Program-made: the position numbers and the translations under genes
The notes under the pieces: generated by a model
Told to the model about the DNA's origin: nothing
The model's database searches: none
The model's input: only the letters and a program-made list of their open reading frames with translations
DNA from: Thermoleophilia bacterium
GTDB lineage: Bacteria > Actinomycetota > Thermoleophilia > Gaiellales > SKUG01
NCBI GenBank assembly: GCA_025964555.1
Contig: JAOPYQ010000015.1
Coordinates: 1-64,000 of the forward strand
DNA length: 64,000 bases
Reading direction: 5' to 3'
In this document: piece after piece, positions 38,078 through 42,547 of the stretch
Layout of the letters: each line of letters opens with the position of its first letter
Numbering within the stretch: the first letter of the stretch is position 1

Positions 38078-39259
38078 ATGCGTCCCGTTCGCCGCGTCGC
38101 GCGCGCTGCACCCCTGGTCCTGTGCTGCCTGTCGCTCTGCGCGGTGGGCGCTCCTGCCGCGTACGCGGACGCCGAGCTCACGGTCTCGCCCCTCATCATG
38201 GAGGTCGAGGCGACGGCCGGGAAGTCGGTCACCGAGACGATCACGGCGACGGCCTCCGGCAGCGACTCCATCGCCCTCGAGCTCGTGCACGCGGACTTCG
38301 GGTTCGGCGGTCCCGACTACCAGGTGCAGCTGATCCGCGACAACGCGGACGAGACGACCGCGTTCTCCACGCGCGGCTGGTTCAGCCTGCCACGGAAGCG
38401 ATACGTCATCCGCGCCGGCGAATCCGTCGACCTGCCCCTCACGATCGACGTGCCGGAGAACACGCCCGGCGGCACCTATCTCGGCGCGGCGCTGCTGCGC
38501 GTGGTCCCGCCCGATGCGAGCGGCGGCGGCAGCCAGGTGCAGGCGGTCCCGGAGACGGGGCCGCTGCTGTTCATCGCCGTCGAGGGCGGCGATCCCCCTG
38601 AAGCGGCGATGAAGCGGTTCGACGTACCGGGCCTCCTTGCCAAGGGACCGCTTCGACCGAAGCTCGTCATCGAGAACATCGGCGACGAGTTCTTCTCGTT
38701 CGAGGGGACGATCGAGCTCTCGGGGCCAGGCAAGGACCGCACCATCGAGGTCGACCGCCAGTTCGTGGTCCCGGGCGAGCCGCGCACGATCCGCACGTCG
38801 GCGAACGAAAAGGGCAAGGATGGCGCGCCGAAACTCGGCACCAGCAAGCTCGAGATGGGTCGCTACGAGGTGACGACGCGGCTGCGCATCGAGCCGCTCG
38901 GCACGACGCTCGTCGCCACACGCACCGTGTGGGTGATCCCCGTCTGGGCCCGGGTCGTCGGCGCGGCCCTCGTTCTGCTGTTTCTCGTCTGCGTGTGGTT
39001 CCTCGCTCGCTGGCTGTCGCATCGACGCGAACTCGGTCGCCTCGTTCGCGAGGAGCTCGCTGCGGATGCCGCCGCGAGCAGGCTGGCTCCGGTTGCCGTC
39101 GAGGACGACGTCGATCCCGACGATGCCGACGACTCGTCCTGGGATGACGACGTGGACGACGACCCCGACGCTGCGGACGACCTCGACGATGCCTCCGATG
39201 ACGAGTCTTCGGTCGACGAGCTCATCGATGGAGCGCCGTCGGACGAGGACTACCGCTGA
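38078..39259 (+). CDS. Surface Ig-like protein, DUF916/WxLIP-like, with acidic tail
   Basis: The 393 residues have a signal peptide (1-30), two Ig-like domains, a membrane segment near residues 285-308, and a long Asp-rich C-terminal tail. The first domain holds TVSPLIMEVEATAGKS and a VIRAGESVDLPLTIDVP stretch followed by GGTYLGAALL. Related signatures recur in the two proteins at 39264-40244 and 40896-41843. Firmicute DUF916 proteins, which bind WxL proteins and peptidoglycan, share this plan of Ig-like domains plus C-terminal anchor. It faces the minus-strand cluster tail to tail. Confidence 0.65.
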   Translation: MRPVRRVARAAPLVLCCLSLCAVGAPAAYADAELTVSPLIMEVEATAGKSVTETITATASGSDSIALELVHADFGFGGPDYQVQLIRDNADETTAFSTRGWFSLPRKRYVIRAGESVDLPLTIDVPENTPGGTYLGAALLRVVPPDASGGGSQVQAVPETGPLLFIAVEGGDPPEAAMKRFDVPGLLAKGPLRPKLVIENIGDEFFSFEGTIELSGPGKDRTIEVDRQFVVPGEPRTIRTSANEKGKDGAPKLGTSKLEMGRYEVTTRLRIEPLGTTLVATRTVWVIPVWARVVGAALVLLFLVCVWFLARWLSHRRELGRLVREELAADAAASRLAPVAVEDDVDPDDADDSSWDDDVDDDPDAADDLDDASDDESSVDELIDGAPSDEDYR

Positions 39260-39263
39260 TCGA

Positions 39264-40244
39264 TCAGCTGTAGGAGCTCGCGGAGTACGCGAGTTCGCCG
39301 TCTTCTTCCTCGTCCTTGCGCCGTCGACGCAGGAACAGGAAGTACAGCACGAAGAGCGCCACGCCGACGAGCGGCAGCAGCATGCTCGACCAGGTGCCCG
39401 CCCACTCCGTCGGCAGCTCGCCACGCGCGGAGGTCTCCTCGTCACCGGGATTGCCGACGACGTCGACGTACTCCTCCACGGGACCCGCCGGCAGGTACCC
39501 GGGATCCTTGCCCGTGGTCGGCGTCTTGAACACGCACTTCCCGCCCGCCTTCGGCATCACGTACGGCGTGCACTTGCCCGTGATCCTGGTCGTCTTGCCG
39601 GGGCCCTTCGGGTCGCGCGTCAGGGTGCCCTTGGTGTTCTTGACCGGGGTGGTGCCCTCGTTGATGAACTTGGTGACGGTCTTGCCGGGCCCGACGATCG
39701 TCGTTTCGGTGACGACGATGTCCGGCGGCGGCGCGCCGCCCGCGTTCATGAGGAACAGCACGCCCATGCGGCTCTCGGCCGTGAGCTCGCCCGCGGCACG
39801 CGACTCGCCGGTGACGATGAGCGCGGCGTAGTGCGCGCCGGTCGCGCCGCTCGGCACGTTCACCTTGACCGCGACCGTGCGGGACTGGTCAGGCGGAATC
39901 GTGATCGCGTCGGGCGCGGTGATCCAGTCGTAGCCGGAGATGTCGGAGGCGAACTTGCCACCGAGCAGCACCGGTGTCAGCGCCGGATCTTCCTTGTCGC
40001 CCTCGAAGTCCTCCTTCGAGAAGGTGAACGTCGTCGGGCTCGTGTTCGTGTTGCTGATGGTGATCGAATGCGTCGACGACGCTCCCGCTCCGGTCTCGGC
40101 GTCGAAGCGCAGCGGCGTCACGCCGAAGCCGATCGAGTCGTCGCCCGCAGCCTGTGCCGGTGCCACCGCGACGAGCGATGCGACGAGCGCCAGCAGCAGG
40201 CCGGCGATGCGGGACGTCGATCGATGTGGGCGGGTGCGATTCAT
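39264..40244 (-). CDS. Surface Ig-like protein, DUF916/WxLIP-like
   Basis: The 326 residues have a signal peptide (1-33), an N-terminal domain with WITAPDAITIPPDQSRTVAVKV and GAHYAALIVTG, and a second beta domain with a Cys pair (CTPYVMPKAGGKC). A C-terminal membrane segment and RRRRKDEEE follow. It is the last gene of the four-gene minus-strand cluster and ends 4 bases from the convergent gene. Its role is probably as a cell-envelope scaffold. Confidence 0.65.
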   Translation of the reverse strand: MNRTRPHRSTSRIAGLLLALVASLVAVAPAQAAGDDSIGFGVTPLRFDAETGAGASSTHSITISNTNTSPTTFTFSKEDFEGDKEDPALTPVLLGGKFASDISGYDWITAPDAITIPPDQSRTVAVKVNVPSGATGAHYAALIVTGESRAAGELTAESRMGVLFLMNAGGAPPPDIVVTETTIVGPGKTVTKFINEGTTPVKNTKGTLTRDPKGPGKTTRITGKCTPYVMPKAGGKCVFKTPTTGKDPGYLPAGPVEEYVDVVGNPGDEETSARGELPTEWAGTWSSMLLPLVGVALFVLYFLFLRRRRKDEEEDGELAYSASSYS

Positions 40245-40257
40245 CGGCTGGTGGGTC

Positions 40258-40863
40258 CTAGAGGTTGGGCACCGCGGTCGCGCGGATGGTGGCGGTCGGT
40301 CGCGCGCCTGCAGGCAGCGCCGAACCGAACTCGGCCTGGAGCTTGATCGTCGTGCGCGTGCGCGGCGTCGGAGCGGCGCGTCGGGCGGCCTCGATCGCGC
40401 GGCCGCCATCGAAGCCGCGCCACTTGGTGCCGTCGCCGAAGCGTCCGAGCGAGAGCGAGCCGACGACCGTCATGCCGAAGCGGCGGTCGTTCGCACCGAC
40501 GGACCACGTCTCGGGCGTGGAGCCGTAGTCCGCGACGTCGATCCCGTTCTTCGCGTCACGCATCGCGGGCGAACGGTTGGTGGAGACGATGAGCTTGAGG
40601 CCGTCGGTGCCGGTGCCCCAGAGGTCCCATGACACGGAACCTCCGTGCTTGCCGCTGCCACCGGCGTCGAAGGTGCCGTTGAGCGGATTGGAGATCACGC
40701 CGCCCGCGAGCACGCGCTGGTCGATCACGCCGGCGCTCTCGACGACCGCCGAGCCATCGTCGGCAGCACTCGACGACGACAGGAAGGGTGCCGAAAGGCA
40801 TGCGACGCACACCGTGGTGACGGTGAGGTCGAGCAGGCGTGAGCGCAAGCGCCAAGGGCTCAT
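40258..40863 (-). CDS. Small secreted beta protein, WxL-like, paralogue of 41840-42547
   Basis: The 201 residues start with a signal peptide (to about 34). The mature part carries SVSWDLWGTGTDGLKLIVSTN, SPAMRD, RRFGMTVVG, KWRGF and a final strand ATIRATAVP. The same landmarks appear in the 235-residue protein encoded two genes upstream. SWDLWG resembles a WxL motif, but only one such motif is present. It lacks an anchor, so it may be held by its Ig-like neighbours. The start is ATG 40863. ATG 40890 is an alternative. Confidence 0.62.
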   Translation of the reverse strand: MSPWRLRSRLLDLTVTTVCVACLSAPFLSSSSAADDGSAVVESAGVIDQRVLAGGVISNPLNGTFDAGGSGKHGGSVSWDLWGTGTDGLKLIVSTNRSPAMRDAKNGIDVADYGSTPETWSVGANDRRFGMTVVGSLSLGRFGDGTKWRGFDGGRAIEAARRAAPTPRTRTTIKLQAEFGSALPAGARPTATIRATAVPNL

Positions 40864-40895
40864 GGTTGCCCTATCGGCATCGAACGGCATGGCCT

Positions 40896-41843
40896 TTACG
40901 ATGGTGGACCGAACCCGTCCGCACCGCCGTCGTCTTCGACCTCGTGGCGACGCTCCCGAGCCCTTCGTCGCATGCGCAGGCGCAGCACCACGACGACCAG
41001 CGCGACCGCGAGCAGCACGAGCATCCAGATCGGCAGCACGACCACGCGCGGTGCCGCATCGTCCACCGCCGCGGCGTCGTCGAGGTCGACGCGCACGTCG
41101 CCCTGGAGCAGGTCCGGCGCCGAGCGCAGGTCGAATTCGACGCGCTGGGTGCGTTCCTCGCCCGGGAACAGGATGCCTGCATCGAGACGTGCCGAGCTGG
41201 CGCCGCCGAACAACCCGTCGACGCGCATCCGCCCCGAGATCGGTTCGTGCACGTCCCCCTCGTTGCGCAGGTGCACGTCCCACGTGGCGCGTCCGCCCTT
41301 CCACCGCCAGCGATCGGATGGCGTCGCGGTCACGCGAACGTCGTGCTCGAACGAGCCGCTCACCGTGATGAAGATCGCCACCGGCTGGTTCACGTCGAAG
41401 CGGACCTGCGAATCGGGACGAGGATCCGGCGCCGTGAACATGATCGCGGCGTAGTGACCGCCGGCGCCCGCATCGGCTGGTACGTCGATCGCAACGTCGA
41501 GCTCCTGCTGCTCGAACGGCGCGATCGTGAACGACCGGGGGCTGATCGGCTTGATCCACCACCCCGCGCCACGTGGCGCGTCGCCGAGCGGCAGGTACTG
41601 GAAGGCGCGACTGTCGGTCCCCTCGCCCGACCGCATGTCGAGACGCTCGCTCGTGAAGGTGGGCTGCACGCCGGTCGAGTTCTTGATGACGAGCGGCACC
41701 GTCACGTGCTCGCCCGGATCGGCCTCGATGAAGTACACGGCGCGATCGAACGTGATCGCCTCATCGGGATCGGGGGCGGTCGCTGCCTGCGCGGCGACGG
41801 GAACCAGGAGCAGGGCCGCGACTGCGGCGAGGATCGTCCTCAG
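40896..41843 (-). CDS. Surface Ig-like protein, DUF916/WxLIP-like, apparent CTG start
   Basis: The 315 residues begin with an ideal signal peptide (RTILAAVAALLLVPVAAQA) that is read only from CTG 41843. That codon overlaps the preceding stop as CTGA, the same geometry as ATGA/GTGA elsewhere in the window. No ATG, GTG or TTG is available before the signal peptide in this frame. The protein has two Ig-like domains (SFTIAPFEQQELDVAIDVP and GGHYAAIMFTA in the first) and a C-terminal membrane segment (about 275-295) with a basic tail. Confidence 0.65.
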   Translation of the reverse strand: MRTILAAVAALLLVPVAAQAATAPDPDEAITFDRAVYFIEADPGEHVTVPLVIKNSTGVQPTFTSERLDMRSGEGTDSRAFQYLPLGDAPRGAGWWIKPISPRSFTIAPFEQQELDVAIDVPADAGAGGHYAAIMFTAPDPRPDSQVRFDVNQPVAIFITVSGSFEHDVRVTATPSDRWRWKGGRATWDVHLRNEGDVHEPISGRMRVDGLFGGASSARLDAGILFPGEERTQRVEFDLRSAPDLLQGDVRVDLDDAAAVDDAAPRVVVLPIWMLVLLAVALVVVVLRLRMRRRARERRHEVEDDGGADGFGPPS

Positions 41844-42547
41844 CCGAGCGGGTGGGCGGAGACGACCATGCTGGCGCGGTACGAGCCGGCGAGCTGCGTC
41901 GCGTCGGACGGGATCATCGAGCGCAGGTGCACGGACATCGTGTACTTGCCCGTGCCGCCGGCGGTCGAGTAGGCGCGGTAGGACGTGCGGGTGAAGCCAC
42001 GCCACTTCCGTGCACTGTCGGTGCCCCACTTGTCCGAGTCGAGCGCGTCGGCACCCGAGGTCGAATCGACGCTCACCGAGTAGCCGAACACGCCCTGGTT
42101 GAAGGAATCGACCTTCCACGGGCACGGGCAGCCGGTGGTCGTGTAGTCGGCGAACGCGGATCGCGCGCCCTTGCCGTCGACGGAGTTGTTGCCGCGCAGC
42201 GCGGGATCGGTCGTCGCGCGGATGCGAACCTCGTAGCCGTTGACCCAATTGGTCGACATGCCCCAGCCGGCGCTCGTCGCATCGATGGCCTCGCCCGGGA
42301 GCGAGACGTTGCCGAGGCGGACGTCCTGGCCGCTCGTCCAGCCGGGCGTCACGCTGGTCGCGACCGGCACCTCGACCTCGATGCGGGTGTCGCTCGACAC
42401 GGGCGCGATCGCACCGCCGGCGAACGGAGCCATCGTCCAGAGCGCGATTGCCGCGATGATCGCCAGCGCGCAGAGCAGCCACGGATCGATCCGCTGCCAG
42501 AGCGGTCGGGGGCGGGTGCGGACACGGGTGATGGCGATGACCTCCAC
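41840..42547 (-). CDS. Small exported beta protein, WxL-like, first of the cluster
   Basis: The 235 residues have a basic start and one hydrophobic segment (about 24-42), acting as signal peptide or anchor. The mature part carries WGMSTNWVNGYEVRI, PALRGN, FGYSVSV, KWRGF and a final GSYRASMVVSA. These landmarks match the 201-residue paralogue. A CPCPW pair of Cys is unique to this copy. GTG 42547 is chosen because GATACC ends 7 bases upstream. Confidence 0.6.
   Translation of the reverse strand: MEVIAITRVRTRPRPLWQRIDPWLLCALAIIAAIALWTMAPFAGGAIAPVSSDTRIEVEVPVATSVTPGWTSGQDVRLGNVSLPGEAIDATSAGWGMSTNWVNGYEVRIRATTDPALRGNNSVDGKGARSAFADYTTTGCPCPWKVDSFNQGVFGYSVSVDSTSGADALDSDKWGTDSARKWRGFTRTSYRAYSTAGGTGKYTMSVHLRSMIPSDATQLAGSYRASMVVSAHPLG

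Follow-up and report, generated by a model that had tools for sequence, protein, structure and literature searches.

The window analysed here is a stretch of 64,000 nucleotides from a Thermoleophilia bacterium, the first 64 kb of contig 7 of a metagenome-assembled genome (MAG; 2.70 Mb, 64% complete) whose nearest named relatives are the Thermoleophilia MAGs RYN_234, RYN_237, RYN_238 and CSSed162cmA_92. It contains a cluster of five adjacent genes, three encoding membrane-anchored proteins that resemble WxLIP (DUF916-DUF3324-transmembrane helix) and two encoding small exported proteins that are not WxL by sequence:

38078-39259, plus strand: P0001, WxLIP-like, with signal peptide, immunoglobulin (Ig)-like domains, a transmembrane helix (about 38951-39025) and a long, acidic, predicted cytoplasmic tail; signature at about 38378-38482
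39264-40244, minus strand: P0002, WxLIP-like, with a C-terminal transmembrane helix (about 39386-39309); signature at about 39935-39822
40258-40863, minus strand: P0003, small exported protein paralogous to P0005, presumed to pair with P0002
40896-41843, minus strand: P0004, WxLIP-like, with two beta-sandwich domains and a transmembrane helix (about 41030-40929; AlphaFold2); signature at about 41567-41454
41840-42547, minus strand: P0005, small exported protein, presumed to pair with P0004; hydrophobic helix at the N-terminus (residues 22-43), beta-sandwich predicted with low confidence

The minus-strand genes are tightly packed in the order P0005, P0004, P0003, P0002, and P0001 lies on the plus strand, convergent with P0002 and behind a CBS-domain gene. 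All five reading frames are open at the coordinates given by the original prediction, which was made from the DNA letters, although its start for P0004 is not a normal start codon (see below). As it had also described, P0001, P0002 and P0004 each possess an export signal, Ig-like domains and a C-terminal anchor, and they share a signature (YVIRAGESVDLPLTIDVPENTPGGTYLGAA in P0001, ITIPPDQSRTVAVKVNVPSGATGAHYAA in P0002 and FTIAPFEQQELDVAIDVPADAGAGGHYAA in P0004). Each protein has two Ig-like domains, and its one anchor is a predicted transmembrane helix followed by a basic and then an acidic tail. Inspection of the three sequences revealed no LPXTG motif; the source genome has a single sortase gene (PF04203) elsewhere (G000:C9:36973-37395). 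The tail of P0001 past the helix (window 39026-39256, about 75 residues) is unusually long and very acidic, and it is acidic in the relatives too.

Judged by their sequences, P0001, P0002 and P0004 are distant relatives of WxLIP. When the five proteins were searched with a profile built from paralogues outside the cluster, P0004, P0001 and P0002 were found with E values of 1.7e-46, 2.1e-26 and 2.2e-16, respectively, and the orthologue sets of P0002 and P0004 aligned with 98.5% probability, and the shared signature is therefore above chance. Each genome of this bacterial family contains 4 to 10 matches to the WxLIP-like family, and a profile of 26 of its members (A8) was used in the membership tests. 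Searched against the whole PDB, A8 ranked EfmWxLIP1 of Enterococcus faecium (9i25_C, 9i1y_A) first with an E value of 1.2e-7, the next match being at 0.014. Against a set of six annotated Firmicutes WxLIPs (A6), hhalign gave 97.1% (E 5e-11) over 246 columns spanning both domains, with the second Ig-like domain predicted in P0004 aligning weakly, whereas controls with WxL or small-protein sets gave 0.2-2.2%. Furthermore, four bridge proteins belonging to the same class as the source (G389:C52, G303:C11, G204:C1 and G413:C90) exceed the DUF916 cut-off (PF06030, 27.3 bits) and are matched by A8 with E values of 1e-14 to 1e-27; since both profiles match them, they support the link to WxLIP.

The likeness to EfmWxLIP1 (PDB 9i1y, 9i25) comprises a signal peptide, two Ig-like domains, a C-terminal transmembrane helix, a length of about 315-395 residues, a VxVP...GxYxA strand region, profile homology over both domains and a small exported protein encoded beside the anchor, at about 10-20% identity. 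Unlike WxLIP, the anchors of the cluster have acidic tails after the transmembrane helix, and they lack the NQIDKxxxYFDLK motif, which was defined for WxLIP in PMC10599100, is present in the A6 alignment and was absent from all three on inspection. Taken singly, the cluster proteins gave nothing over cut-off in Pfam and NCBIfam scans, and P0002 had no match in the PDB with phmmer. Among the 26 family members, DUF916 was matched in 7 (best E 1.1e-5) and DUF3324/HBD in none at E 0.1, and a DUF3324 domain was thus undetectable in the anchors with Pfam.

The AlphaFold2 model of P0004 (predicted local distance difference test, pLDDT, 82.9) shows two beta-sandwiches and a long C-terminal helix (residues 272-305). 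In a Foldseek search with this model WxLIP appeared at ranks 5-6 (E 1.3e-9; template modelling scores 0.40/0.45), the top match by E-value was RbmA, a tandem Ig/fibronectin-type matrix protein, and the chaperones CfaA, CsuC, CupB2 and FimC came lower down. The RbmA match, together with the fact that P0001 has no small partner, would suit adhesins or RbmA-like matrix proteins with Ig-like domains that act independently, are neighbours by chance and bind no client. We consider this quite improbable, because RbmA has no transmembrane anchor, the sequence search ranks WxLIP well ahead of other Ig-like proteins, the small and anchored families are linked repeatedly, at many loci across five genomes, and in several further actinobacteria a WxLIP-like gene comes immediately after one for a WxL-like protein.

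Allowing for contig ends, synteny of the five genes extends to each of the four other genomes analysed from the family (Thermoleophilia MAGs, one of another genus); the genes are kept together rather than scattered in relatives, as had been anticipated. Order and orientation are the same in G003:C455, G002:C140 and G001:C306 (where the contig ends inside P0002), and in the relative of another genus contig ends split the cluster (G004:C245, with P0001 on C197). Orthologues in the four relatives exhibit 38-56% identity for P0002, 42-58% for P0003 and 40-70% for P0005, and P0001 orthologues lie at L062:9068-10132 (minus), L063:6334-7581 (minus) and L052:8557-9156 (plus). A search with P0003 through 129 genomes of the order returned strong matches only in the source and these four relatives, which marks the complete set as a feature at the family level.

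P0003 and P0005 are paralogues, as had been claimed (their sets, A2 and A3, align by hhalign at 89.5%, E 2e-6), but the accompanying description of both as anchorless is less secure, since the hydrophobic helix of P0005 could be an uncleaved anchor. On present sequence comparisons the two belong to a separate small exported family and are not WxL domains. Neither matched a Pfam family, the P0005 set matched no PDB sequence of note, and comparison with WxL gave 0.1-0.2% in hhalign and E values of 0.2-0.4 in hmmsearch of the five proteins. A profile of the small exported proteins adjoining WxLIP-like genes (A13, the client family) gave no alignment with WxL or with WxL-like proteins of actinobacteria (A11, see below). 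On the other hand, A13 aligned with A2 (88.4%, E 2.8e-6) and with A2 and A3 combined (93.0%, E 3.3e-7), and in hmmsearch of the five proteins it detected P0005 clearly (5.3e-7) but not P0003 alone (0.71).

WxL proteins (PF13731) are likewise small, exported and encoded just upstream of an anchor. The small proteins of the cluster share with them one W-x-[LMVA] strand, whose Trp does not vary in any of the 10 small proteins compared, and P0005 has a GxYxA near its C-terminus (GSYRASMVVSAHP), which loosely recalls the distal WxL motif. They differ in the lack of profile similarity, in the absence of a second WxL motif among the 10 small proteins, and in having the invariant motifs WRG and PA[LM]R/Q instead. 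The single Trp strand and the P0005 C-terminus, along with gene order and anchor homology, would fit a bona fide Firmicutes-type WxL-WxLIP cluster, with P0003 and P0005 as peptidoglycan-bound small WxL proteins and the set binding a host; given the missing WxL similarity and second motif, the undetected DUF3324 and the lack of host evidence, we regard this as very improbable. Of the original WxLIP/WxL reading, the kinship of the anchors and the order of small gene next to anchor gene have held, whereas the small proteins have no WxL similarity, and no test run pointed to attachment to peptidoglycan or to a host.

Another possibility is a fibre or pilus, in which the small proteins would polymerise like pilins by donor-strand exchange and the anchored two-Ig proteins would serve as membrane-tethered chaperones or bases. 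The model for the pilin of the CPR (candidate phyla radiation) Pam pilus system (NF058581, curated cut-off 55 bits) is matched by P0005 at 12.6 bits (E 0.11), and by a client-family paralogue from contig C18 of the source genome (L036:14801-15532) at 23.5 bits (E 4.6e-5) over nearly all of the model, both far under the cut-off; a literature search on the CPR Pam pilus found no paper. Weak matches of P0005 to FimA and PapG pilin domains and the likeness of the P0004 fold to CfaA, CsuC, CupB2 and FimC point the same way. However, the P0005 fold matches are non-significant, the chaperone matches are at about 10% identity and common to many Ig-like proteins, and the cluster showed neither an usher nor a sortase gene. 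Fimbrial chaperones such as CfaA, CsuC and FimC also combine two Ig-like domains with a beta-sandwich subunit as partner, but they are periplasmic, soluble and devoid of a transmembrane anchor, and the resemblance is at the fold level only. A pilus is therefore unlikely in our view.

The original prediction knew of no such system in actinobacteria, and a literature search found no paper describing a WxL-WxLIP system there. Nevertheless, DUF916 was found over cut-off in 21 of 297 sampled actinobacterial genomes and WxL in 5 of 297. WxLIP-like anchors occur in 82 of 300 sampled Thermoleophilia genomes (38 of 106 genera), where, at the loci inspected, they often adjoin small exported proteins of more than one family. 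At G303:C11 (L114:4981-6716) and G413:C90 (17294-18507) a DUF916 gene is immediately preceded by a PF13731 WxL gene, both over their cut-offs. These pairs come from the same class as the cluster and have the same gene order and anchors that match A8 (E 1e-14 to 1e-22), but their partners exceed the WxL cut-off and the small proteins of the cluster do not. At several other actinobacterial loci an exported protein, small or large, ending in ...vP...aGxYxxxLTLTL is encoded directly upstream of a WxLIP-like gene. Twelve exported proteins with a WxL-like end from such upstream genes (A11) align with Firmicutes WxL at 94.4% (E 8.6e-8), and 4 of the 12 match PF13731, showing that the WxL-WxLIP logic exists in Actinobacteria, with the distal-motif Trp often replaced. 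Large exported proteins of other actinobacteria with this kind of C-terminal end, encoded directly upstream of WxLIP-like genes (L124:7676-8989, L125:5650-7038, L129:6898-8805 and L131:5634-7142), resemble large WxL proteins. The A11 proteins were also tried as intermediates for identifying the small proteins of the cluster as WxL, which was rejected since the comparisons were not significant.

Elsewhere in the genomes of the source and its relatives, small exported proteins with a GxYxx C-terminus, mostly cysteine-containing, accompany WxLIP-like genes, and the small family recurs beside the anchored family at many loci in the five genomes. Eight of nine client-family matches outside A13 (E about 1e-14 or better) lay within 2.2 kb of a WxLIP-like gene by hand count, the exception being G003:C8, with no such gene within that distance. 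On source contig C47, client-family genes (L035:807-1538, L035:2740-3414 and L035:2-523) alternate with WxLIP-like genes.

Anchor homology to WxLIP, shared architecture, conserved synteny and the recurrent linkage of small and anchored proteins all support an envelope-display module of the WxL-WxLIP kind, in which each of two anchors captures a small client, and we hold this reading to be probable, if only just. Gut Gram-positive bacteria use WxLIP to hold partners on the cell wall. For E. faecium, PMC10599100 predicts that a hairpin strand from the first WxLIP domain enters WxL, and the PDB contains a WxLIP-WxL complex (9i25). Since the anchors are homologous to WxLIP, we infer that P0004 and P0002 hold their partners in WxLIP fashion. 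The cluster would then consist of two tandem client-anchor pairs, P0005-P0004 and P0003-P0002, plus P0001 as a lone third anchor. P0004, P0002 and P0001 would be fixed in the membrane, exposing two Ig-like domains in tandem on the outside, and the client would be the small, exported, beta-rich protein encoded just ahead of its anchor (P0005 before P0004, P0003 before P0002). After export, the first Ig-like domain of the anchor would capture the client, with strand complementation of the kind in the WxLIP-WxL complex as the probable mechanism, and the anchor would then hold the client at the cell surface.

Several observations weigh against such a module. Each window protein alone is far under the DUF916 cut-off, the best being P0002 with 15.8 versus 27.3 bits (E 0.015). 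RbmA, the fimbrial chaperones and WxLIP fit the P0004 model about equally well, so that the fold alone is not specific, and tandem Ig-like folds are common. The P0005 model (pLDDT 68) is too uncertain to classify, and in its fold search no match had an E value below 1e-3 and WxL did not appear in the list of 50; the structural likeness anticipated by the original prediction thus extends to WxLIP for P0004 but not to WxL for P0005. P0001 has no adjoining small partner. Finally, the client matches are clustered and therefore not independent, and gene linkage is not evidence of binding.

To our knowledge, WxL/WxLIP systems have been described almost only from gut Firmicutes, and they are interpreted as host-attachment devices. 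The occurrence of WxLIP-like proteins in Thermoleophilia, often beside varied small proteins, points to surface display in general, and not to attachment to hosts, as their basic role. More tentatively, and with rather more doubt than confidence, the WxLIP fold might be a general membrane-tethered display chaperone in Actinomycetota with an exchangeable client, WxL-type in some lineages and a sequence-unrelated small exported family here, with many pairs per genome. The WxLIP kind is already known; what looks new here are anchors with a different small-protein family as presumed partner, whereas WxLIP clusters have a recognisable WxL protein and do not have three anchors per cluster. The cluster also offers simple two-protein pairs for testing client recognition by strand complementation.

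A minor observation concerns the translation start of P0004. None of the five genomes has an ATG, GTG or TTG within 50 codons before the signal peptide, and the frame opens where it overlaps the P0005 stop by four bases (41840-41843, minus strand; CTGA in two genomes and CTAG in three), the same junction being found in L062, L063, L064 and L065. A conserved GTG about 54 codons upstream was rejected as the start, as it is explained by a KW motif conserved in P0005, and at the four-fold sites there conservation is no higher than in other parts (0.54 vs 0.52 and 0.54). Inspection for a -1 frameshift fusing P0005 and P0004 revealed no evident slippery site. A normal start codon immediately ahead of the signal peptide was seen in nearly all of the WxLIP-like paralogues inspected. 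The junction suggests that translation of P0004 may begin either by coupled re-initiation at a non-standard codon or through a frameshift.

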